Assembly: GCA_029258795.1 (NCBI GenBank)
Contig: JAPDKB010000007.1
Coordinates: 119,070 to 183,069 of the forward strand
DNA length: 64,000 bases
Direction: 5' to 3'
From: an archaeon
GTDB lineage: Archaea; EX4484-52; WAPT01
Part shown: positions 41,446 to 53,666 of the stretch, one piece after another
Layout: each line of letters begins with the position of its first letter
How positions within the stretch are numbered: the stretch's first letter is position 1
The notes under the pieces: generated by a model
What the model was told of the DNA's origin: nothing
What the model saw: only the letters and a program-made list of their open reading frames with translations
Database searches by the model: none
Translations under genes and position numbers: made by a program

Positions 41446-42075
41446 ATGAAAAAATTCACGAAATACGTACTCTCCGTATTTGGAGGAAGGGTTGTTACAA
41501 GGGAAGAAATGGAAAAGGCATGCAAAAGATTCGGAGAAGATGCACGCAGGGCTATAAACTTCATGATATCCTACGGTTATCTGATAAGAATTCTCCGCGG
41601 ACTCTACTACGTCAGAACCATTGAGGAATTCAGCACGCGGAAAAGCATCGACACACTGAAACTAATCTCAATGGGAATGAAAAAGCTTGGAGTGAACTGG
41701 TACTTCGGATTGAACACGGCCTTGAGGTTGAACGGAGCCACGCACGAGTTCTTCCCCGTGATCCACGTGCTGAGCGATTCTATCTACAGACCCAAGATCG
41801 TGAAGATTAACGGAGAGGATGTTAAGTTCATAAAGCTGAAGAAAGAGCTCTTCGGTTTCGGGGTTGTTGAGAAGGATGGAGTGAGGTATTCGGATATGGA
41901 AAAGACCTTGCTTGATATGGTTTATCTTTCGAGATACCGATCAGTACCTGAGGAGAGGATAATTGCACTCCTGAAAGAGTACAGAAAAGAAGTGAAAAGG
42001 AAAAAGCTCGCGGAGTACCTTCGCCTCTATCCGAAGAGCGTGAGGAGAGTAGTTGAAAATGCCGGACTTGTCTGA
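41446..42075 (+). CDS. abiEi: AbiEi-like antitoxin
   Basis: A 209-aa protein with an N-terminal winged helix (FGGRVVTREEMEKACKRFGEDARRAINFMISYGYLIRILRGLYYVR, residues about 13-57) and the AbiEi C-terminal region (WYFGLNTALRLNGATHEF, then GVRYSDMEKTLLDMVYLSRYR). In type IV AbiE systems this protein represses the operon and counteracts the nucleotidyltransferase toxin. Its end overlaps the abiEii start by 17 bases, so translation is coupled. A palindromic operator lies immediately upstream. The module is bounded by copies of the taw1 3' end. Confidence 0.85.
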   Translation: MKKFTKYVLSVFGGRVVTREEMEKACKRFGEDARRAINFMISYGYLIRILRGLYYVRTIEEFSTRKSIDTLKLISMGMKKLGVNWYFGLNTALRLNGATHEFFPVIHVLSDSIYRPKIVKINGEDVKFIKLKKELFGFGVVEKDGVRYSDMEKTLLDMVYLSRYRSVPEERIIALLKEYRKEVKRKKLAEYLRLYPKSVRRVVENAGLV

Positions 42076-42970
42076 GTTCGTTGCCTTCGTGGCGGAGAAA
42101 TCGGGGATTCGAAAACCTTCGCTGATTGAGAGGGACGTGATTATACACGGAATACTTAAAGAACTCAATTCAGCATTCGGCGATGCGTATCTCTTCAAGG
42201 GCGGAAGCTGTCTGGTGAAGTGCTACTTTGGCTATTACCGCTTCAGCGTTGATCTTGACTTCACGTGGAGGAGACAGGAGACATGGAAGAATCTGGGAAA
42301 GAAGGATCTGAGAAGGAAGCTTGTGGAGCAGGCTGAAAGATTCGGCTCGATTCTTGAAGGAATCGCACATGGCATGGAACTTGACTTCAGATGTGATTTG
42401 AAGAACAGAAATTATACGGAGTTCGGGAGCGGGAGCAGAATGGCTACTTTCAAACTCTGGAGGGGGAGCGAGATGGTCAAGATTCAGGTTAATTTTGTTG
42501 AGAAACTTCTCTTCCCTCCCGAGAATGCTGTTGCGAAAACTCTTCTCACAGGCAGAGAGATCGGCGATGAGGATAAAGCTTACTTCCGTGAATTTCTGGA
42601 ATTCTACCAGCCTGTGAAAGTTTCTGCTTACAGTATTGAGGAGATTCTGTGTGAGAAGATGCGTGCAATTCTAACGAGGCAGGCGATGAAGCTGAGAGAT
42701 ATATATGACGTGTTCATGATCTGGAAAGCCGGAGTGAGGATTGAGGAGCTGAAGGATGCGATTCTGGAAAAAATAAGGTTCGCGATGAGATTCAAAAAGT
42801 ACAGGGATGCTCTTAAAGCCAGCATGGAGACTCTCAACCTTGAAAGCATTCTCGAAGACCCTGCTGAGATGGAAATGTTTGTGGTGAAACCAACGGAAGA
42901 ATTCTATTCCTTTGCAGGTGAGCTGGAGAGCTTCCTGAAAGAGGTTGCGCGTGAAGTTTCAACAAAGTGA
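42059..42970 (+). CDS. abiEii: AbiEii-like nucleotidyltransferase toxin
   Basis: A 303-aa nucleotidyltransferase of the AbiEii/DUF1814 type. Motif I is LFKGGSCLVKCYFGYYRFSVDLDFTW (the GGS then DxD pattern) near residue 45. Downstream are KIQVNFVEKL and the helical core YSIEEILCEKMRAILTRQAMKLRDIYDVFMIW, a family hallmark. Characterised members transfer nucleotides to tRNA or other targets and halt growth, often during phage infection. ATG 42059 is preferred over the track start at 42053. It is the last gene before the displaced taw1 tail. Confidence 0.88.
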   Translation: MPDLSEFVAFVAEKSGIRKPSLIERDVIIHGILKELNSAFGDAYLFKGGSCLVKCYFGYYRFSVDLDFTWRRQETWKNLGKKDLRRKLVEQAERFGSILEGIAHGMELDFRCDLKNRNYTEFGSGSRMATFKLWRGSEMVKIQVNFVEKLLFPPENAVAKTLLTGREIGDEDKAYFREFLEFYQPVKVSAYSIEEILCEKMRAILTRQAMKLRDIYDVFMIWKAGVRIEELKDAILEKIRFAMRFKKYRDALKASMETLNLESILEDPAEMEMFVVKPTEEFYSFAGELESFLKEVAREVSTK

Positions 42971-43560: not shown

Positions 43561-44391
43561 TCAGCTTCTTATGACCGTGCCCAGCCCTACCTCTCCAAGC
43601 AGCGCGCGCCTCACATACCCTTCCCTGTTGCCGTTTATTATCTCGGCAACGATCCCTTCCAGCTCCATGAGTTCTTCGATCTTCCTGACCATGCCTCCAG
43701 TGACATCAAAATAGGAGGAGCCACCAAGCACTTCAAGCACCTGTTTTAGGTTGTCGCGTGTTATCTCCTTTATGAGCTTTGCGTCCTTGCTCTTCTTCGG
43801 GTCTTTATCGTAGATACCATCAACATCACTTACATGCACCAGCCTGTCTGGCTCGAGATGTTTTGCCAGATGCCTCATTATCTCATCTCCAGATAGTATG
43901 CCCCCTCCAAGTTTTTTATCGTAAGCTGGCACGCCGTAAAGCACGGGAACAAGCCCCACGTGAAGCATACCCTCTATCGCTTTAACATCCATGTGCACGA
44001 GCTTCTCGTTTTCCAGCACGGCTGAAGCAGAGGCCTGCACGGGCACGGCAGGAACATGATAGTTCTGGAGCTCGGCACACACCTTAGCATTAAGCTCGTT
44101 CTGTAAGCGCTGAATCTCTGCAAATCCGAGCAACCTTCTTTCATACTCGTTCTCCTTCAGGATTTTATAAAGAGTGGCAAGCACATGACCGTAGCTTCCA
44201 GCACCATGAATCAGAATGAGTGCAAGGTCCTTCCTTTCACTCCATGCCTCACCTATCTCCTTGGCAAGTCTTTTCAGATTATCTTTGTTCAGAGTGGGCA
44301 TCCACCTGTTCTTGTAGGTTATGATCGAGCCTCCAAGCTTCATGATGATGAACTCGTTAACCTCATGACCGTTAAGCCTGTGAAACCTCAT
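43561..44391 (-). CDS. ipk: Isopentenyl phosphate kinase
   Basis: Converts isopentenyl phosphate to IPP, the last step of the archaeal mevalonate route. Amino-acid-kinase fold: FIIMKLGGSIITYKNRW near residue 16, LALILIHGAGSYGHVLA carrying the substrate-binding His of IPKs, GVPAYDKKLGGGILSGDEIMRHLAKHL, LVHVSDVDGIYDKDP and the final SSYFDVTGGMVRKIEELMEL. About 276 aa. The ATG at 44391 shares one base with the ubiX stop (TGATG), with AGGTGGTG upstream. The next gene is trm56. Confidence 0.95.
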   Translation of the reverse strand: MRFHRLNGHEVNEFIIMKLGGSIITYKNRWMPTLNKDNLKRLAKEIGEAWSERKDLALILIHGAGSYGHVLATLYKILKENEYERRLLGFAEIQRLQNELNAKVCAELQNYHVPAVPVQASASAVLENEKLVHMDVKAIEGMLHVGLVPVLYGVPAYDKKLGGGILSGDEIMRHLAKHLEPDRLVHVSDVDGIYDKDPKKSKDAKLIKEITRDNLKQVLEVLGGSSYFDVTGGMVRKIEELMELEGIVAEIINGNREGYVRRALLGEVGLGTVIRS

Positions 44392-44969
44392 CAGCACCAC
44401 CTCTCGTATTCATAATCAACTCCAAGCAGATCCATCACCTTTCCAACCAAATTTCTGATCATGACCCCAACATCTACCCTCCCATCTCTCTTTCCGTAAA
44501 AGCTCATCACCAGCGGCAGGATTATAGCACCTTCCTCGGCAAGCATGAGCATGTTGCGGAGATGTGCAGCTCTTAGCGGCGTTTCCCTCACGCACAATAC
44601 CAGCTTCCTTTTTTCCTTCAGCGTGACGCTTGCTGCCCTTGCAAGCAGGTTAACCTCAAGCCCCGTCGCTATGGATGCAAGCGTCTTCATGCTGCACGGA
44701 ACAACAACCATCCCGTCATGCTTGAATGTGCCCGACGCCACTGGGGCTTGCAACTCCTGCTCATCATAAACCCTGCATGCAAGCGATTTCAGCTCTTTGG
44801 CAAAGTTTTTTTCATCCATGCCAAGCTCGTGCTGAGCAACCCGGAAAGCTCCGCCTGTCGGAATGGCATGCACTTCCACACTGCATTTCTTCAGAGCTTT
44901 CAGCAGTTCAAGCGCTACGGGCAATCCTGAAGCACCGCTTATCCCGACAACGATCCTTTTCTCAGTCAT
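44391..44969 (-). CDS. ubiX: UbiX flavin prenyltransferase
   Basis: Makes prenylated FMN, the cofactor of UbiD decarboxylases, from FMN and a dimethylallyl donor. The FMN-binding start IVVGISGASGLPVALELLKAL, VVVPCSMKTLASIATGLEVNLLARAASVTLKEKRKLVLCVRETPL and the LAEEGAIILPLVMSFY segment are diagnostic. Length is 192 aa. It lies in the same operon as the UbiD-type enzyme, so cofactor supply and use are coordinated. It overlaps the MazG-like gene upstream by four bases and the IPK start by one. Confidence 0.96.
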   Translation of the reverse strand: MTEKRIVVGISGASGLPVALELLKALKKCSVEVHAIPTGGAFRVAQHELGMDEKNFAKELKSLACRVYDEQELQAPVASGTFKHDGMVVVPCSMKTLASIATGLEVNLLARAASVTLKEKRKLVLCVRETPLRAAHLRNMLMLAEEGAIILPLVMSFYGKRDGRVDVGVMIRNLVGKVMDLLGVDYEYERWC

Positions 44970-45229
44970 ACTTCAGACCCTTGTGTTGTAAGGTATTTCC
45001 TCTCAAATTCTCTGTACATCGCATCTATGCTATCTTTCCTCTCTATTCCGAGCATCTCTAGCACATTCACCAAGCTCTCACGAACATCACTAACTCCTGC
45101 GTCCAAACCAGCATGCCCGACACCGCTCTTCCTCCCCTTCACCAATCGATACAACTCCCTAACCTCTTCTACCACATACTTGCTAACCTTAACTCCATTC
45201 CATCCGTACTGGTGGTGCACTATGCACAT
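44966..45229 (-). CDS. MazG-like small protein in the mevalonate operon
   Basis: An 87-aa helical protein resembling a single MazG nucleotide-pyrophosphohydrolase domain: QYGWNGVKVSKYVVEEVRELYRLVKGR (an ExxE-like helix), then SDVRESLVNVLEMLGIERKDSIDAMYREFERKY (the E/D helix and typical LGI-xxx-DAM end). One acidic helix appears weaker than in active MazG enzymes. The track start at 45259 is rejected in favour of ATG 45229, which follows GGGAGGTG by six bases. It sits between the dehydratase small subunit and ubiX, overlapping ubiX by four bases. A link to the pathway is suggested by position only. Confidence 0.6.
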   Translation of the reverse strand: MCIVHHQYGWNGVKVSKYVVEEVRELYRLVKGRKSGVGHAGLDAGVSDVRESLVNVLEMLGIERKDSIDAMYREFERKYLTTQGSEV

Positions 45230-45268
45230 TTCCCCCACCTCCCGAAACAACATCAGCATGCGCTACAA

Positions 45269-45685
45269 CTATTCAATCACTTCCACTATGCCTTTCGTGG
45301 CATCAACTCTCACACGCTTAGCATCCTTCAGCTCCTCAATCTTTATGCCGTCCACACAGGGAATGTCAGCGAGTATGCAACCCGTGGCCACTATTGTTTC
45401 AGTTTCCTCGTTTATTATTGCAAGGGGTGCAACCCCATTCTTTTTTAGCCCGTAAATGACGTAAGAGCCAACAGTGCTCCCCTTTCCGTGAGGAAAAACC
45501 AGTATTTTGTTTGCCATGCTCTTTCCATACAACTCATGATCCTTCTCCACCACAGTACCGCTGTTCAAATCCACGCTTCCAAAAAAGCTTATGGGCATGC
45601 TTGTGTAAAGAACCTCGCCTTCCGCCTTACCCTCCATAACGGGATTGCCCTTGAGAACCTTTTTGGCTGTTTTTTCATCAGTCAT
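45269..45685 (-). CDS. Phosphomevalonate dehydratase small subunit (aconitase X swivel)
   Basis: Swivel-domain subunit of the aconitase-X type phosphomevalonate 5-phosphate dehydratase, which makes trans-anhydromevalonate 5-phosphate. Features: VLKGNPVMEGKAEGEVLYTSMPISFFGSVDLNSGTVV near residue 9, the active-site loop VFPHGKGSTVGSYVIYGLKKNGVAPLAII and ATGCILADIPCVDGI. The 138-aa size fits a separate small subunit. It is nine bases downstream of the large subunit, so the two are coexpressed. Confidence 0.94.
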   Translation of the reverse strand: MTDEKTAKKVLKGNPVMEGKAEGEVLYTSMPISFFGSVDLNSGTVVEKDHELYGKSMANKILVFPHGKGSTVGSYVIYGLKKNGVAPLAIINEETETIVATGCILADIPCVDGIKIEELKDAKRVRVDATKGIVEVIE

Positions 45686-45694
45686 ATATCCACC

Positions 45695-46894
45695 TCATTC
45701 AGCAAACTTATCGATGATTCTGGAAATATCATCGAAAAGCACCATCTGTTTGTTCGTGTTTGGCAAATAGAATGCTGCCTTGCCCGAATTAACGGCCACC
45801 TTCTTTATACCAAGCACGTCCAGGGGGGCAACAACAGGGCATGTATCCTCTATGAGCTTTGCTCCTGCTTTTTCCAGCTCTTCACTAATGCCCGCTCGTT
45901 TTGCAATGCTCTTTACGGCCTGGGAAGTGAATATCCACATCGGCACTTTCAGCTTCTTTCCTTTGAGAAGCTCACAAATCTCCCTGATCTCGTTGATGGA
46001 TGCATGAGGACATCCTACGGCTATCAGCTCCACATCCTCAAGCTCAGACGACATGGCTTCGTATGCTTCCTTCAACTCTTTTTCACCCACGTCAATCGTC
46101 TCCTCCACATTTTCAACATCCACACATCCTTTTCTCGCTTCAGGCGTTATCCCCTCAACATGAAAGAGCGCAACAGCCCCGTAAGCGGCAAGAGAAGCCC
46201 CCAAACTTTTGAGCTCGTCTATGCCTGCATGCTTTATGCCAGTGAAATATGGTACGCCCTTACCTTTGGCTTTACCCACCACACAGCCCAGCGCCCCATA
46301 ATCCGAAATGCTTTTCAGTTCAGCATCCACCCTCACCACGAAATTCGGGTTTCTGTTTTCATCCAGATGGAAGCCATAATAAGGAGTCCTGCCTGTGATG
46401 GCTGCTGCAAGGGCTGACGGTCCTCCCTCTCTGTTGGTTCTCGCCCCAACAACGGAATTGGAAAATGCGACTGCAGAACTCTCGCTCCATGCTATGTGCT
46501 CACGAAATCTCGGAAGCATTCCCGCCAGATATGGTGTGCAGGTGCTCGCCACAATAACGCCCATCTTCCTGAAAGCTTCAATAACCCTCTTCTGTTTTTC
46601 AGCAAAATCGGAAGGTATACCTATCTCTTCCCATCCTTCCATAGGCATGCCCGCGGGATTCATGAAGGATGTAACTTTAACTTTCGCGCCCTCGTTTGCA
46701 AATCCTTCAAGAAACTCAAGGCCGGGATCTCCTATGTTTTTGTAGGACACGCCTGCTATCTGCACAGATCTTACCTCAACCATCCTCTCTGCTCCGAACT
46801 TCTCCCCCAGTTTCACGAGCAGCTTCATGCATCTTGCAACCACATTCCCATATTCTCCTTCAAGCATTCTCTCCTCTTCCTTGGTCAGATACAT
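45695..46894 (-). CDS. Phosphomevalonate dehydratase large subunit (aconitase X catalytic)
   Basis: Catalytic subunit (399 aa) of the archaeal dehydratase acting on mevalonate 5-phosphate. It shows the aconitase-X start MYLTKEEERMLEGEYG, the cluster-binding region with IVASTCTPYLAG (Cys), SVVGARTNREGGPSALAAAITGRTPYYG, AVGCPHASINEIREICELL (Cys) and KLIEDTCPVVAPLDVLGIKKVAVNSGKAAFYLP (Cys). Three well-placed cysteines suit a [4Fe-4S] cluster. GGTGGG precedes the ATG. It is followed by the small subunit at nine bases. Confidence 0.95.
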   Translation of the reverse strand: MYLTKEEERMLEGEYGNVVARCMKLLVKLGEKFGAERMVEVRSVQIAGVSYKNIGDPGLEFLEGFANEGAKVKVTSFMNPAGMPMEGWEEIGIPSDFAEKQKRVIEAFRKMGVIVASTCTPYLAGMLPRFREHIAWSESSAVAFSNSVVGARTNREGGPSALAAAITGRTPYYGFHLDENRNPNFVVRVDAELKSISDYGALGCVVGKAKGKGVPYFTGIKHAGIDELKSLGASLAAYGAVALFHVEGITPEARKGCVDVENVEETIDVGEKELKEAYEAMSSELEDVELIAVGCPHASINEIREICELLKGKKLKVPMWIFTSQAVKSIAKRAGISEELEKAGAKLIEDTCPVVAPLDVLGIKKVAVNSGKAAFYLPNTNKQMVLFDDISRIIDKFAE

Positions 46895-46910: not shown

Positions 46911-47288
46911 TTATTTGTGCTCTCCCGCTTCTATCGCTTTAACCGTAGCAAGCAAAAGCTTGTCAGCGTTCTCAACCATGAGTTTGATTTCCTCTTCAGT
47001 CGCATCCTCAAGATGGATTCCACCCACACACAACACAGGGGTGTTGAAGTGCTTTGCAAGCTCCTCAGCGAACTTTCTCACCACAACGTCATCCTTGTGT
47101 CCGGGCATGGTGTAAACGCACGAGGGAGTAGCTCTTATTTTACCATCGCCCTTATCGTAAGGTACGGCTATGCACACGCTCCCTATGTGCGGCTTATCTC
47201 CACCACCCACCAGCAGGATTAGGTCATCACCTACCGCACATATCTCCGCCCATACCTGATGTCTTCCCTCTCCCACACTTATTCTCAC
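46911..47288 (-). CDS. LpdD-like protein, possible prenyl-FMN chaperone
   Basis: A 125-aa alpha/beta protein resembling LpdD, the small protein co-encoded with bacterial UbiD-type gallate decarboxylases. Segments are LILLVGGGDKPHIGSVCIAVPY, SCVYTMPGHKDDVVVRKFAEELAKHFNTPVLCVGGIHLEDATEEEIKLMVENADKLL. The GHKDD and GIHxxxATxEEI motifs are the strongest marks. The start is GTG 47288, with GAGGTGAG five bases upstream. It lies directly between the UbiD-type decarboxylase and the dehydratase, so a role in cofactor loading or maturation of that decarboxylase is likely but inferred. Confidence 0.75.
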   Translation of the reverse strand: MRISVGEGRHQVWAEICAVGDDLILLVGGGDKPHIGSVCIAVPYDKGDGKIRATPSCVYTMPGHKDDVVVRKFAEELAKHFNTPVLCVGGIHLEDATEEEIKLMVENADKLLLATVKAIEAGEHK

Positions 47289-47315: not shown

Positions 47316-48602
47316 TCATGCTTTATCCTTGGATGTGACCTTCCTGAAGTTCTTCTCCTTACCCACGGGCATTGTGGCATCGATTATCCATTTGGTCGTT
47401 GTTTTCTTTTCATGGTTCTGGGAAGGGTCTAGGGAAGAGCCCTTACATTCGGGGATTATCACAACATCTTTATCTGCCTGCACCCTCGTCGCTATCGCCC
47501 ACTCAACCTCTCGCTCATTCGTTATGTCTATGTCGTCATCAACAACCACAACCCTCTTTAGGGATGGGTGTGCTGCCAGCGCTGCAAGCCCGACATTCTT
47601 GCCCTCTCCCTCAACCTTCTTTGTTATGGACACAACTGCATGAAGCCAGCAACCACCACCTTCCGTGAGCACCACGTTTTTAACTCGGGGCAGCGTGTTG
47701 GACACAATCTTAAATATGCGCGGCTCTTGCGGAATGCCCATCAGATAGCGGTGCTCCACTCCACCCGGCAGTATCGTGCGGTAGATGAAGTCATTTCTGT
47801 AGTACAGCTTCTCTATCTCCACCACCGGCTGCTTCCTTACTATATCCCAGGTGCCGGTGAGGTCAACAAACGGGCCTTCATCTGCAAGCTCGCTCTTTCG
47901 GACCACACCAACCATCACGATCTCTGCATGAGATGGTACGTGCAGCCCATCGAGATCAACGCAGCTCAACTTTCCATCGAGCAGCGAGTTGGCAAACTCC
48001 ATCTCGTTGAAGCCGAAGACAAATGATGTAGCGGCAGCCACCTCAACTGCAGGATGCACTCCCATAAAAATTGCAATTCTGACATCACTCTTTGCTCTTT
48101 CAAGGATGGTGGAGAAGTGCCTTCCCGGTATAATACGCATAACGAATCTGTTTTTACCAAGGTATTTCATGCGATGAAAGGAGTAGTTGAGCTTTCCAGT
48201 TTCCTCATCTCTAGCCACCACAATGCTGGAAGAGGTGTAGTGGGAGCCATCCCCCTCATAAAACTTGAGCAGAGGGATGTGCTTTATTATGTCTGGATTG
48301 TCCATCTCGTTCTCCATGAAGGGTGCTTTTTCCACCATTTTGTAGGGCTCGGGAGAATCCATACATTGCGTCATCCTTGCAATGATCTCGTTCCTGTTTT
48401 TGGCTCCTATGGCTTTGGCTATCACATCTCTGGAATTGAGGAGAGATGCAAGCACTGTGTTGTTGTAGTTCTTTGGTGAGGTGAAAAGCACCGCTTTTCC
48501 CTCTCGCTCCCCTTTCTCAATAAACGGAGTCATCTCAAGCTCAGCAGATAAGTTGTCTTTAACCTCAACAATCTCTATTTCTTTCAGAAACTCTCGTAGC
48601 AT
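47316..48602 (-). CDS. UbiD-family anhydromevalonate phosphate decarboxylase
   Basis: Prenyl-FMN-dependent decarboxylase. In this setting it should convert trans-anhydromevalonate 5-phosphate to isopentenyl phosphate. The 428-aa sequence has the UbiD landmarks: YYTSSSIVVARDEETGKLNYSFHRMKYLGKNRFVMRI, an E-x-P-like LSCVDLDGLHVPSHAEIVMVG segment, GPFVDLTGTW, and the late KRVVVVDDDIDITNEREVEWAIATRVQADKDVVIIPECKGSSLDPS. It is shorter than bacterial UbiD, as archaeal AMPD enzymes are. GGAG precedes the ATG. The operon partners UbiX, dehydratase and IPK support the assignment over an aromatic-acid decarboxylase. Confidence 0.93.
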   Translation of the reverse strand: MLREFLKEIEIVEVKDNLSAELEMTPFIEKGEREGKAVLFTSPKNYNNTVLASLLNSRDVIAKAIGAKNRNEIIARMTQCMDSPEPYKMVEKAPFMENEMDNPDIIKHIPLLKFYEGDGSHYTSSSIVVARDEETGKLNYSFHRMKYLGKNRFVMRIIPGRHFSTILERAKSDVRIAIFMGVHPAVEVAAATSFVFGFNEMEFANSLLDGKLSCVDLDGLHVPSHAEIVMVGVVRKSELADEGPFVDLTGTWDIVRKQPVVEIEKLYYRNDFIYRTILPGGVEHRYLMGIPQEPRIFKIVSNTLPRVKNVVLTEGGGCWLHAVVSITKKVEGEGKNVGLAALAAHPSLKRVVVVDDDIDITNEREVEWAIATRVQADKDVVIIPECKGSSLDPSQNHEKKTTTKWIIDATMPVGKEKNFRKVTSKDKA

Positions 48603-48678: not shown

Positions 48679-49749
48679 TTACGTCGAATCGGGAAGGGTG
48701 GTGACACCTTCCACACCCATATCAACAACATAAACGCGGGCTGCACATTTTAACAGGGTGTCTCTCACCGCTTCAACAGTATAATCGTCTGCAAGCGCAA
48801 TCATTATGCCTCCTCCTCCCCCGCCGGACGGCTTTGCACCGAGCGCTCCAGCAGACAGCGCTGCATTCATTAGCAACTTCAGTTTCTCCGTAACAATCGG
48901 CACGAAGTTTTCAAACACCCTGTATTTTTTATTCAGAGCCATGCTAATTTCATCCAGCTTCTCGAGCAGCTGAGCGTTTCTGTTCATCAGCTCTCCTAAA
49001 GCTACAGCGTCCGCGTTTTTCAGGGCTGAAACTCCCTCCTTCACCACACTTTCAATCTCATCAAACACCTCCTCGTATGGCTCTTCCTCCATCTCCCTCA
49101 GCTTCTTGATCTCTCCAACCGTGGTTGAAGTTCTTGCCCTTATCCCCGTATCTCCTATCACAAGGTGAAATACCACATCCCCTTCCACACGTTCCATATC
49201 TATCGGGAGCTCTCCAGAAGAGGAGTTGGGTTTTTTCCTCACAATATGTGTCCCGCCAAAGACGCTTGAAGCAAACTCAGCTCCGCTTGCCGCTCCACCA
49301 TGAATCTTTTCCTGGAACGGGAGCAGTATTTCGAGATATCTTTCCTTCGAGATACCCCATCCGTACAGTTCGTTGAGCGCATGAAAGAAAGAAGATAGGA
49401 AAGCTGTTGAGCTGCTCAGGCCGCCGGTTGTGTGAGGAATATCGCTTCTCACGTCTATTCGCACACCATCATCCATACCGTAATGCTCATAACACTCCTC
49501 AAGCAACTCCTTGGCAGGCTGGAGCTCTTCCCCACATATGGAAAATTCAAGCCCATAATCAGTGATTCTTCCGGCAAGATTACCATAACCTGCTGATCCC
49601 ACAACCACGCTGGTGCTCATGCTTTTCTGAGCGGTGGTGTATGTTCTCATGCTCACAGCGGTTACTATGGCGGGTCTGTGGTAAACCACAGCATGCTCCC
49701 CCATGAAAAAAACGTTGCCCGGAGCGGAAGCAACGACCTTATCAGGCAT
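48679..49749 (-). CDS. mvk: Mevalonate kinase
   Basis: GHMP kinase phosphorylating mevalonate at the 5 position. The start VVASAPGNVFFMGEHAVVYHRPAIVTAV, the phosphate loop HTTGGLSSSTAFLSSFFHALNEL near residue 111 and AGALGAKPSGGGGGGIMIAL near residue 300 are the three GHMP motifs. The length of 356 aa is normal for archaea. It is the first gene of the minus-strand mevalonate operon, 76 bp before the decarboxylase. A TATA-like CAATATACTTTATTC near 49784-49798 provides a promoter. Confidence 0.95.
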   Translation of the reverse strand: MPDKVVASAPGNVFFMGEHAVVYHRPAIVTAVSMRTYTTAQKSMSTSVVVGSAGYGNLAGRITDYGLEFSICGEELQPAKELLEECYEHYGMDDGVRIDVRSDIPHTTGGLSSSTAFLSSFFHALNELYGWGISKERYLEILLPFQEKIHGGAASGAEFASSVFGGTHIVRKKPNSSSGELPIDMERVEGDVVFHLVIGDTGIRARTSTTVGEIKKLREMEEEPYEEVFDEIESVVKEGVSALKNADAVALGELMNRNAQLLEKLDEISMALNKKYRVFENFVPIVTEKLKLLMNAALSAGALGAKPSGGGGGGIMIALADDYTVEAVRDTLLKCAARVYVVDMGVEGVTTLPDST

Positions 49750-50066: not shown

Positions 50067-51398
50067 ATGAGTGAGGGAAGCAATAAAACAGAAGGAGAAG
50101 CGAGCAAGAAAAGCTCGAGGGTGAGCGGGTTCTACAAGCTGAGCGTTGAGGAAAGGAGAAAGTTCGTGAAGGAGTTTGCCGGGCTTACGGATGATGAGGT
50201 AAAGCTTCTTGAAGGCAACGCTCTGCCCATTGAGCTTGCGGACAAGATGGTTGAGAACGTCATAGGTAAGATGGAGGTGCCTCTTGGTGTTGCGGTCAAC
50301 TTCCTGATAAACGGAAAGGATTATCTTGTGCCGATGGCCATAGAGGAGCCGAGCGTGATAGCTGCAGCTTCTTACATGGCCAAGATTGCAAGAGAGAACG
50401 GCGGGGTTAAAGCTGAAGCCACCGATCCGATCATGATAGGGCAAATACATCTTGCCCACGTGCCTGATTTGGAAAAGGCTAGGGAAGCCATCCTTGCCAG
50501 AAAGCAGGAGCTTCTGAAGGTGGCGGAAGCGCAGGACCCCACTCTCGTGAAGTATGGAGGAGGGCCCGTGGATATAGAGGTTAGAGTTACGGAGCATGAA
50601 GATGGTGATAAGTTTCTTGTGGTGCACTTGCTTGTGAATTGTGCCGATGCCATGGGGGCCAATCTCGTGAACACCATGGTGGAAGCCATTGCGCCAGTTC
50701 TGGAGGAGATAACCGGAGGAAAGGCTATCCTGAAGATCATAAGCAATCTTGCAGCTTACAGAATTGCAAGGGCTGAGGTGAAGATAAGGCCGGAGACGAT
50801 TGGCGGAGAGGAGGTTGTGGAAAGGATAGTGCTCGCAAGCAAGATGGCTGAGGCAGATGTTTTCAGGGCTGTGACGCACAACAAGGGCATAATGAACGGA
50901 ATAACGGCCATAGCACTTGCTACAGGTAATGACACAAGAGCGATGGAAGCGGGAGCCCATGGCTATGCCGCTAAAGACGGCAGATACAAACCGCTTGCCA
51001 TCTGGAGGAAGGATGAAGATGGCAATTTAGTGGGGAGGATAGAGATCCCGATTCAGGCAGGCATAGTGGGTGGTGCAACTCGCGTGCATCCCATGGCCAA
51101 GCTCAACCTGAAGATTCTTGGTGTTAAGAGTGCGAGAGAGCTTGCGGAGGTCATGGCTGCTGTGGGCCTGCTTCAGAATCTCGCTGCCATAAGGGCCATA
51201 GCAACTGAAGGCATACAGCGCGGCCACATGGAGCTGCATGCCAGAAACCTAGCCATAATGGCTGGAGCTGACGCTAGCAAAGCTGATGAGATAGCTGAAA
51301 GGGCTGTGGAGGAGGCCAGAAAGGAGGGGAGGAAGATAACGATGGATTTGGTCAGGGAGGTCATGAAAGAGATGGGGCTGGAGGTTCGGGAGAGTTGA
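50067..51398 (+). CDS. mvaA: HMG-CoA reductase, class II
   Basis: Reduces HMG-CoA to mevalonate. The 443-aa protein follows the class II pattern: [66 protein letters not shown] (catalytic Glu), [27 protein letters not shown] (catalytic Lys and Asp) and [14 protein letters not shown] (catalytic His). Most archaea carry class I; class II is typical of bacteria and of Archaeoglobus and Thermoplasma relatives. The N-terminus has a short Ser/Lys-rich extension ([16 protein letters not shown]). Leaderless start from TATA near 50038. It leads the plus operon. Confidence 0.95.
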
Positions 51399-51426
51399 GA
51401 TGCTCTGCTCGGGGTGTGGCTGTGCT

Positions 51427-52479
51427 ATGAAGCTGGACGGTAAGGTCGGCATAGTTGGCTACGGATGTTATGTTCCGATGTACAGAATAAAGGTGGAGGA
51501 AATTGCAAGTGTGTGGGGGGAGGATGCTTCACGCATAAAGAACGGATTGCTTGTTGAAGAGAAAGCTATAGCAGGAGATGATGAGGATACTGCCACTATA
51601 GCTGTGGAAGCCGCAAGGAATGCGATTAAGCGAGCCAGCATAGCTCCGGAGCAGATAGGGGCCATTTATGTGGGGAGCGAAAGCCACCCGTATGTCGTGA
51701 AGCCCACCGCCACGATAGTTGGGGAAGCTCTCGGCGTTGGTAATGATTACACTGCCGCCGATCTTGAGTTTGCCTGCAAGGCCGGGACGGCAGGCATTCA
51801 GATGTGCCTCGGGCTTGTGAAAGCCGGCATGATAGATTACGGCTTAGCGATCGGGGCTGACACCGCTCAGGGTGCTCCCGGAGATGCGCTTGAATACACC
51901 GCTGCAAGCGGTGGAGCTGCTTTCGTCATAGGCAGGAAGGATGTGCTTGCAAAGGTTCTTGCAACAGCTTCATTTTCCTCAGACACTCCTGACTTCTGGA
52001 GGAGGCCGTTTCAGCACTATCCGAGGCACGCAGCAAGATTTACCGGAGCGCCCGCTTATTTCAGGCATGTTGGTGGAGCTGTCAACTTTCTGCTCGAGGA
52101 AATGGGAATGAAAGCAAACGAGTTCGATCATGTTGTGTTCCACATGCCGAACGGCAAGTTCCCGCTTAGAATGGCGAAGATGCTCGGCATAGAAAAGGAT
52201 AAGCTTGAGAATGGATTCGTGGTGAGCAAGGTTGGTAACACATACTCGGGAAGCAGCTTGCTTGGATTGTGTGCCACGCTGGACAAGGCAAAGCCGGGAG
52301 AGCTGATCCTGCTCGCATCTTTCGGAAGCGGTGCTGGAAGCGATGCTTTCGCGATAGAAGTGACGGAGCTCATAGAGGAAAAGAGGGAACTGGCACCTAC
52401 CTTTGAATACTATCTGAACAGGAAGGTTTACGTGAGCTATGCGAGATATGCTAAAATGAGGGGCAAGCTGAAGGAATAG
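51427..52479 (+). CDS. Archaeal HMG-CoA synthase
   Basis: Condenses acetoacetyl-CoA with acetyl-CoA. Thiolase-fold protein: [22 protein letters not shown], the catalytic Glu region [17 protein letters not shown], the acetyl-accepting Cys in [19 protein letters not shown] near residue 107, [22 protein letters not shown] with the His, and [19 protein letters not shown]. The track start at 51400 adds nine residues; ATG 51427 ([11 protein letters not shown]) matches the family. In archaea it forms a channelling complex with thiolase and the DUF35 protein, and all three genes follow each other here. Confidence 0.95.
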
Positions 52480-52502: not shown

Positions 52503-53666
52503 ATGGCAAAAAAGGTCTGCGTTGTTGGTGTTGGCCTGACAAAGTTCGGAGAACACTGGGACAGGGGCTTCAGAGAGCTTGCCATAGAAGCTGGAGTGAA
52601 AGCCATAGAGGATGCTGGCATAAGCGGTAAGGACATAGATGCCATGTACATAGGTAACATGTCCGGCGGCAGGTTCATAGGGCAGGAGCACATAGCTTCA
52701 CTCATTGCTGGAGAGTTAGGACTTAACATTCCATCAACAAGGGTGGAGGCAGCATGCGCTTCCGGTGGCCTCGCGGTTAGGCAGGCTTACCTAGCTGTGC
52801 TTTCCGGAAAGCATGATATCGTGCTGGTCGGTGGAGTAGAAAAGATGACCGATCTGAGCACGGCTGATGTCACCACAACTCTTGCCGGAGCAGCCGATCA
52901 GGAGTGGGAAGGGTATTATGGAGCAACGTTTCCCGGTCTTTACGCCCTGATGGCCAGAAGACACATGTACGAATATGGCACCACAAGAGAGCAGCTTGCT
53001 CTCGTGGCTGTTAAGAATCATGAGAATGCAACGAAGAATCCCATAGCGCAGTATCCGTTCAGGATAACGGTTGAGGATGTGATCAACTCCACTCCGGTTG
53101 CTGAGCCGCTCAACCTTCTGGATTGCTCTCCAATAACTGATGGTGCAGCTGCGGTGATTGTTTGTAGCGAAGAGGTTGCCAAGAAACTTACGGATAAGCT
53201 GGTGTATATAGCTGGGAGCGGGCATGCCACCGATACTCTTGCGCTGCATGACAGGGAAAGCTTGACAGAGATAAAGGCAACGAGGCTTGCTGCAAAGATG
53301 GCTTATGAGGAAGCAGGCATAAGGCCAAGAGATGTGGATGTTGCCGAGGTGCACGATTGCTTCACCATAGCTGAGATAATGGCCATAGAGGATCTGGGAT
53401 TTGTGGAGAAGGGAAAGGGCGGGAAGTTCGTTGAAGATGGTGAAACTAAGCTTGATGGTTCGATTCCGGTTAACACTTCCGGAGGGTTGAAAGCATGCGG
53501 GCATCCCGTTGGTGCAACGGGAGTCAAGCAGATATCTGAGATCGTGCTGCAGCTGAGGGGTGAAGCCGGGGAGAGGCAGGTGAAGGATGCGAGGATAGGG
53601 CTTGCGCACAACGTTGGAGGGAGCGGAGCAACTGCTGTGGTGCATATTTTGGAGAGAGGATGGTGA
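52503..53666 (+). CDS. Acetyl-CoA C-acetyltransferase (thiolase)
   Basis: Makes acetoacetyl-CoA. The 387-aa thiolase shows [29 protein letters not shown], the nucleophilic Cys in [22 protein letters not shown] near residue 84, [21 protein letters not shown] and [29 protein letters not shown] with the C-G-H-P motif. This is the archaeal SCP2-like type that binds HMG-CoA synthase through the DUF35 protein. It starts 23 bases after the synthase gene; the ATG follows GGTCGGTTGTT. Confidence 0.95.

Follow-up and report, generated by a model that had tools for sequence, protein, structure and literature searches.

We identified an archaeal member of the LpdD family, encoded between the UbiD-type decarboxylase and the AcnX-type dehydratase of a mevalonate operon. 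The window, by which we mean the whole 64,000-nucleotide stretch analyzed, carries the gene set of the archaeal modified mevalonate pathway (Table 1). Most archaea depend on this pathway for their membrane lipids; in it, AcnX is the phosphomevalonate dehydratase, UbiD the anhydromevalonate phosphate decarboxylase (AMPD), and UbiX the maker of the prenylated flavin of UbiD. By analogy with characterized LpdD, we consider it probable that the small protein is a prFMNH2-binding chaperone that loads the neighboring AMPD. The recurrence of the UbiD–LpdD pairing in other archaeal phyla suggests a maturation partner that is missing from descriptions of the pathway.

Results

Gene Content of the Operon

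The decarboxylase of the window is a predicted AMPD, an assignment that we propose from its UbiD family, its place in one operon with AcnX, UbiX, and isopentenyl phosphate kinase, and established knowledge of the pathway. The GHMP kinase scored under the NCBIfam equivalog cut-offs. For the 97-residue ORF between the small AcnX subunit and UbiX, we found no Pfam match and, at the corresponding place in two sister loci (L006 and L007), no tblastn match. Rfam gave no match in the window. Elsewhere in the window (41446–42970), an AbiEii-type nucleotidyltransferase toxin gene (PF08843, 2.4e-27) is preceded by a 209-residue ORF lacking a Pfam match, and the two likely form a type IV toxin–antitoxin pair.

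Table 1. Mevalonate-pathway genes and adjoining reading frames, in window coordinates
Feature	Coordinates	Strand	Evidence and remarks
Isopentenyl phosphate kinase	43561..44400	-	NF040647 2.7e-77, over cut-off
UbiX flavin prenyltransferase (makes prFMNH2)	44391..44969	-	TIGR00421 2e-58, over cut-off
97-aa ORF between AcnX small subunit and UbiX	44966..45259	-	4-nt overlap with UbiX start
AcnX small (swivel) subunit	45269..45685	-	PF01989 1.4e-34; NF003046 over cut-off
AcnX large subunit (phosphomevalonate dehydratase type)	45695..46894	-	PF04412 2.4e-157
LpdD-family protein, 125 aa; predicted prFMNH2-binding chaperone	46911..47288	-	GTG start; PF21758 2.5e-31
UbiD-family decarboxylase, 428 aa; proposed AMPD	47316..48602	-	PF01977 1.6e-50, TIGR00148 1e-115; sole UbiD of the genome
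GHMP kinase, mevalonate-kinase-like	48679..49749	-	TIGR00549 147 bits vs. cut-off 163; PF00288, PF08544
HMG-CoA reductase (divergent operon, upper mevalonate pathway)	50067..51398	+	PF00368 8.3e-113
HMG-CoA synthase-like	51400..52479	+	PF01154 1.5e-05, PF08541 5.4e-12
Acetyl-CoA acetyltransferase (thiolase)	52503..53666	+	PF22691 6.2e-57

The Small Protein Is an Archaeal LpdD

The gene lies 27 nt from the UbiD stop and 16 nt from the start of the large AcnX subunit, in the order UbiD–LpdD–AcnX and thus immediately after the UbiD-type gene, as the preliminary description had it. A GAGGTGA stretch stands just 5' of its GTG. We regard the ORF as coding because two sister species carry, in the same slot between UbiD and AcnX, a protein 60 to 62% identical to its product; a chance ORF is ruled out by family, fold, and this conservation.

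The LpdD-type motifs that had been read from the sequence were borne out by profile, fold, and metal-site residues. The Pfam family PF21758 (PAC_bac) matched with an E-value of 2.5e-31 and 108.2 bits against a curated cut-off of 27, aligning residues 7–119 of 125 to positions 2–114 of the 115 in the profile. Pfam names the family "bacterial proteasome assembling chaperone-like," but the solved member matched here is LpdD. NCBIfam held no fitting model for the protein. Against the PDB, a single-sequence phmmer search found LpdD at 1.7e-5, and a 36-row profile of relatives found it at 1.2e-17, with PAC4 reaching just 0.64. The AlphaFold2 monomer was predicted with a pLDDT of 95.5 and a pTM of 0.89; searched with this fold, Foldseek ranked LpdD chains first to sixth in the PDB (8.5e-07 to 6e-06, TM about 0.75–0.83), with yeast Pba3/4 next. 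In a direct test of the PAC4 family (PF16093), the protein scored 15 bits (E 0.025), below the curated cut-off of 31. It is most likely a dimer.

LpdD of Lactobacillus plantarum binds Mn through His35, His61, and Asp63 (PMC10865409), and these residues align with H34, H64, and D66 of the window protein. The triad is kept in all 39 Thermoplasmatota and Theionarchaea rows of the alignment and in the three rows of the window genus, while the two histidines of the site are kept in 61/61 bacterial and 22/23 Thermoproteota rows. Equally constant is a further histidine, H92, in a GIH motif.

LpdD Genes Are Linked to UbiD and UbiX

A whole-genome profile search found a single PF21758 gene and a single UbiD gene in the window genome, adjacent to each other, and the client of LpdD should therefore be the neighboring UbiD. 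Among 19 LpdD-bearing archaeal genomes chosen from the genome collection, UbiD was present in one copy in 15, in two copies in one, and in none of three fragmentary ones. We then looked at loci chosen by the LpdD family alone, with no selection for UbiD. In the Thermoplasmatota and the Theionarchaea phylum, UbiD adjoined LpdD at every one of 35 loci and AcnX did so as well at 21, which supports the proposed link of LpdD to the archaeal decarboxylase. In the Methanomethylicota, the LpdD gene stands beside UbiX and apart from UbiD: UbiX was adjacent at 11 of 12 loci there and at 16 of 20 in the Thermoproteota scan, two sets that share some genomes. Bacterial loci had UbiD or UbiX adjacent in 42 of 62 cases; the preliminary description had stated that LpdD accompanies bacterial prenyl-FMN decarboxylases.

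At some Thermoplasmatota loci (e.g., L126 and L131), a gene read from its sequence as truD-like lies on the opposite strand and splits LpdD from AcnX, with UbiD–LpdD intact. Plasmid searches for the family returned just Desulfobaculum and Enterococcus raffinosus; the Desulfobaculum bizertense plasmid (L005) carries a lone LpdD-family gene that neighbors cytochrome genes, and the 8 kb read there contained no match to UbiD or UbiX.

Co-occurrence across genomes pointed the same way, in two tests that rest on counts read by hand from tables and assume an independence that the genomes do not have: of the 30 LpdD genomes of Thermoplasmatota, 29 belonged to the set of 100 that matched AcnX strongly (Fisher 7e-9), and UbiD was found in 64/66 Asgard genomes with a strong LpdD match vs. 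102/130 of the others (3e-4).

The UbiD–LpdD–AcnX Order Occurs on at Least Two UbiD Lineages

In the UbiD tree, the UbiD of the window genus falls apart from those that accompany LpdD in Thermoplasmatota and Theionarchaea, its exact position being unsure in this quick LG+G4 tree with long branches. A single origin of the gene order together with a shared UbiD was rejected, as the AU test excluded a single clade (p-AU 4e-10). Members of the same taxonomic order that lack LpdD carry yet another UbiD lineage. The UbiD–LpdD–AcnX order is thus found on at least two UbiD lineages and, since these UbiDs do not form one clade, was either assembled on two or more occasions or passed on through an exchange of parts. 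Its repetition, by either history, argues for a working link. The LpdD protein itself is too short for its tree to place the window genus.

LpdD Is Not a Universal Partner

Counted at E ≤ 0.001, PF21758 matches were found in 3 of 34 genomes of the window's own phylum, all three from the window genus, and in 20/250 Thermoproteota, 30/196 Thermoplasmatota, 5/99 genomes of the Theionarchaea phylum, and 73/196 Asgard genomes. From the Halobacteriota, the archaeal survey covered the control M. acetivorans, which had a PF21758 match. Within the own phylum, 14 of 17 UbiD-bearing genomes lacked a PF21758 match, and the short UbiD loci (L188–L197) showed no divergent LpdD beside UbiD. LpdD was likewise absent from about 71 of the 100 Thermoplasmatota with a strong AcnX match, and Asgard LpdDs with an intact site had UbiD or UbiX nearby in just 1 of 33 loci.

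Because many archaea with AcnX and UbiD have no LpdD, the protein is not essential in general, and an LpdD-type protein as universal AMPD partner is ruled out. A review reports that E. coli made lycopene with pathway genes taken from M. mazei and A. pernix (PMC8791446). The preliminary description had suggested that the archaeal decarboxylase needs a maturation partner: a link to the decarboxylase is supported, whereas a general need is not, in view of the own-phylum genomes, the Thermoplasmatota with AcnX and no LpdD, and the lycopene result. From the absences and the lycopene result, archaeal LpdD looks like a lineage-dependent maturation aid rather than an invariant pathway component, a role already proposed for UbiDs generally (PMC10865409).

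A Second Class of Small Proteins Lacks the Metal Site

At six Asgard loci (L232, L233, L235, L236, L238, and L239), overlapping genes are arranged in the order small protein–UbiX–UbiD–AcnX, and the small protein is divergent and without the His/His/Asp site (identified in one of the six by position only). A profile built from these Asgard proteins and one Thermoproteota sequence matched in 146 of 397 Thermoproteota. Among 90 Thermoproteota loci (L255–L344) drawn from the stronger matches and thus no random sample, a PAC4-like gene lay directly upstream of UbiD, on the same strand and abutting or overlapping it, in 45 (e.g., L256:1480-1845); the other 45 copies were near genes that resemble, by reading of the sequence, sua5, nth, helicase, radB, or HD-domain genes. 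UbiD-linked and unlinked copies are intermixed in the tree.

The Thermoproteota proteins tested match Pfam PAC4 and not PF21758, and the Asgard ones match both weakly. The second-class profile reaches human PAC4 at 9e-4, and hhalign connects it to the LpdD profile with a probability of 97.7 (E 1.4e-12). These proteins may be metal-less partners of UbiD or archaeal relatives of proteasome chaperones. Seven Asgard genomes (G588, G632, G648, G661, G703, G721, and G746) have second, weak PF21758 matches on the UbiD contig, at a near-constant distance of about 22–25 kb, which are possibly a PAC4-type proteasome chaperone.

A broader reading, which we put forward tentatively and think somewhat less likely to be right than wrong, is that archaeal AMPD commonly works with a small partner of the LpdD/PAC4 superfamily in two forms. 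One would be LpdD with its metal site, in the window genus, Thermoplasmatota, Theionarchaea, Methanomethylicota, and Asgard; the other, in Thermoproteota and some Asgard, would be the metal-less PAC4-like protein, co-translated with UbiD and loading or stabilizing the cofactor by a different route. If so, archaeal lipid synthesis would have in prFMN delivery a missing and widespread step, and the ancestor of the eukaryotic PAC3/PAC4 proteasome chaperones would be placed near a cofactor chaperone.

Discussion

Proposed Role and Alternatives

With L. plantarum LpdD as our source, we infer for the window protein the binding of prFMNH2, its hand-over, and an effect on decarboxylase activity. UbiX of the same operon would make prFMNH2, which the LpdD dimer would hold via the metal site H34/H64/D66 on a conserved loop face and pass to the UbiD-type decarboxylase encoded next door while that enzyme is in its apo form. 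The decarboxylase could thereby be loaded at low cofactor concentration and mature to its active iminium state. Against such a role, earlier work gave bacterial LpdD little or no part in the activity of its own gallate decarboxylase, and in vitro LpdD activated E. coli UbiD modestly and lowered the activation of AnFdc1 (PMC10865409).

The strict adjacency to UbiD at the 35 loci could also indicate a lasting subunit or stabilizer of the decarboxylase complex that carries no cofactor, its metal site serving the interface, for which VdcD–VdcC provides a precedent (PMC10865409). We think this unlikely: in Methanomethylicota the gene stands beside UbiX and away from UbiD, which suits a cofactor carrier better, and the conserved residues belong to the metal and prFMN site of LpdD. 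Far less likely is a role for LpdD in guarding or maturing another operon partner, such as the oxygen-sensitive [4Fe-4S] AcnX dehydratase, or in channeling substrate between dehydratase and decarboxylase. The position of the gene directly between UbiD and AcnX, in the window genus and at 21 of the 35 loci, would fit such a role; at other loci of that group, however, a truD-like gene or a contig end parts LpdD from AcnX with UbiD still adjacent, and the bacterial and Methanomethylicota homologs accompany UbiX, never AcnX.

We give least credence, indeed hardly any, to a proteasome assembly chaperone of the PAC3/PAC4 type that sits in the operon by accident. Such a reading is suggested by the Pfam name and by the fold shared with yeast Pba3/4, but the PAC4 match stayed under its cut-off, LpdD outscored PAC4 by profile and by fold, and both the recurrent UbiD/UbiX linkage, bacteria included, and the kept His/His/Asp site speak against it. 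A chaperone that loads AMPD with prFMNH2 is the reading that we prefer.

In the literature searched, which did not extend to the original A. pernix paper, we found no paper that connects the archaeal pathway to LpdD or to prFMN. The descriptions found there give AMPD and a prenylated-flavin synthase and no cofactor chaperone, in line with the earlier view of an accessory function outside the described pathway. The family itself is known; as far as this literature shows, its place in the archaeal mevalonate pathway is new. A conserved LpdD partner makes it testable how prFMN is loaded and matured in anaerobes that have an essential UbiD, and as a practical lead, co-expression of LpdD could help E. 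coli and similar hosts to produce more archaeal AMPD.

Comparison with Known Systems

PAC4 and Pba3–Pba4 (PF16093; 2z5b, 5wtq) have their overall fold in common with LpdD, whose dimer resembles Pba3–Pba4 (PMC10865409). They differ from the window protein in that the sequence match is under the cut-off, the protein is nearer LpdD by both profile and fold, and no proteasome link was seen. The PAC4-like proteins, whose genes precede UbiD in Thermoproteota and UbiX–UbiD in some Asgard, are homologous to the LpdD profile and share a tight operon with UbiD, but lack the metal residues, match mostly PAC4 as the best Pfam family, and are unlinked to UbiD in half of the copies inspected. VdcD and PhdC are encoded with UbiD/UbiX and support UbiD activity, as proposed for the window LpdD, and are described as other families, PhdC being a flavin-reductase-like maturase (PMC13040415).

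The L. plantarum LpdD (PDB 8po5, 8p4w, 8pzh, and 8pzo; PMC10865409) resembles the window protein in profile, fold, and metal/prFMN residues at about 20% identity in the structure alignment, and the genes of both are tied to a UbiD/UbiX system. The two differ in client, a gallate decarboxylase in L. plantarum and a predicted isoprenoid-pathway UbiD in the archaeon, and in the place of the gene, which lies beside UbiX in the bacterium and between UbiD and AcnX in the window.
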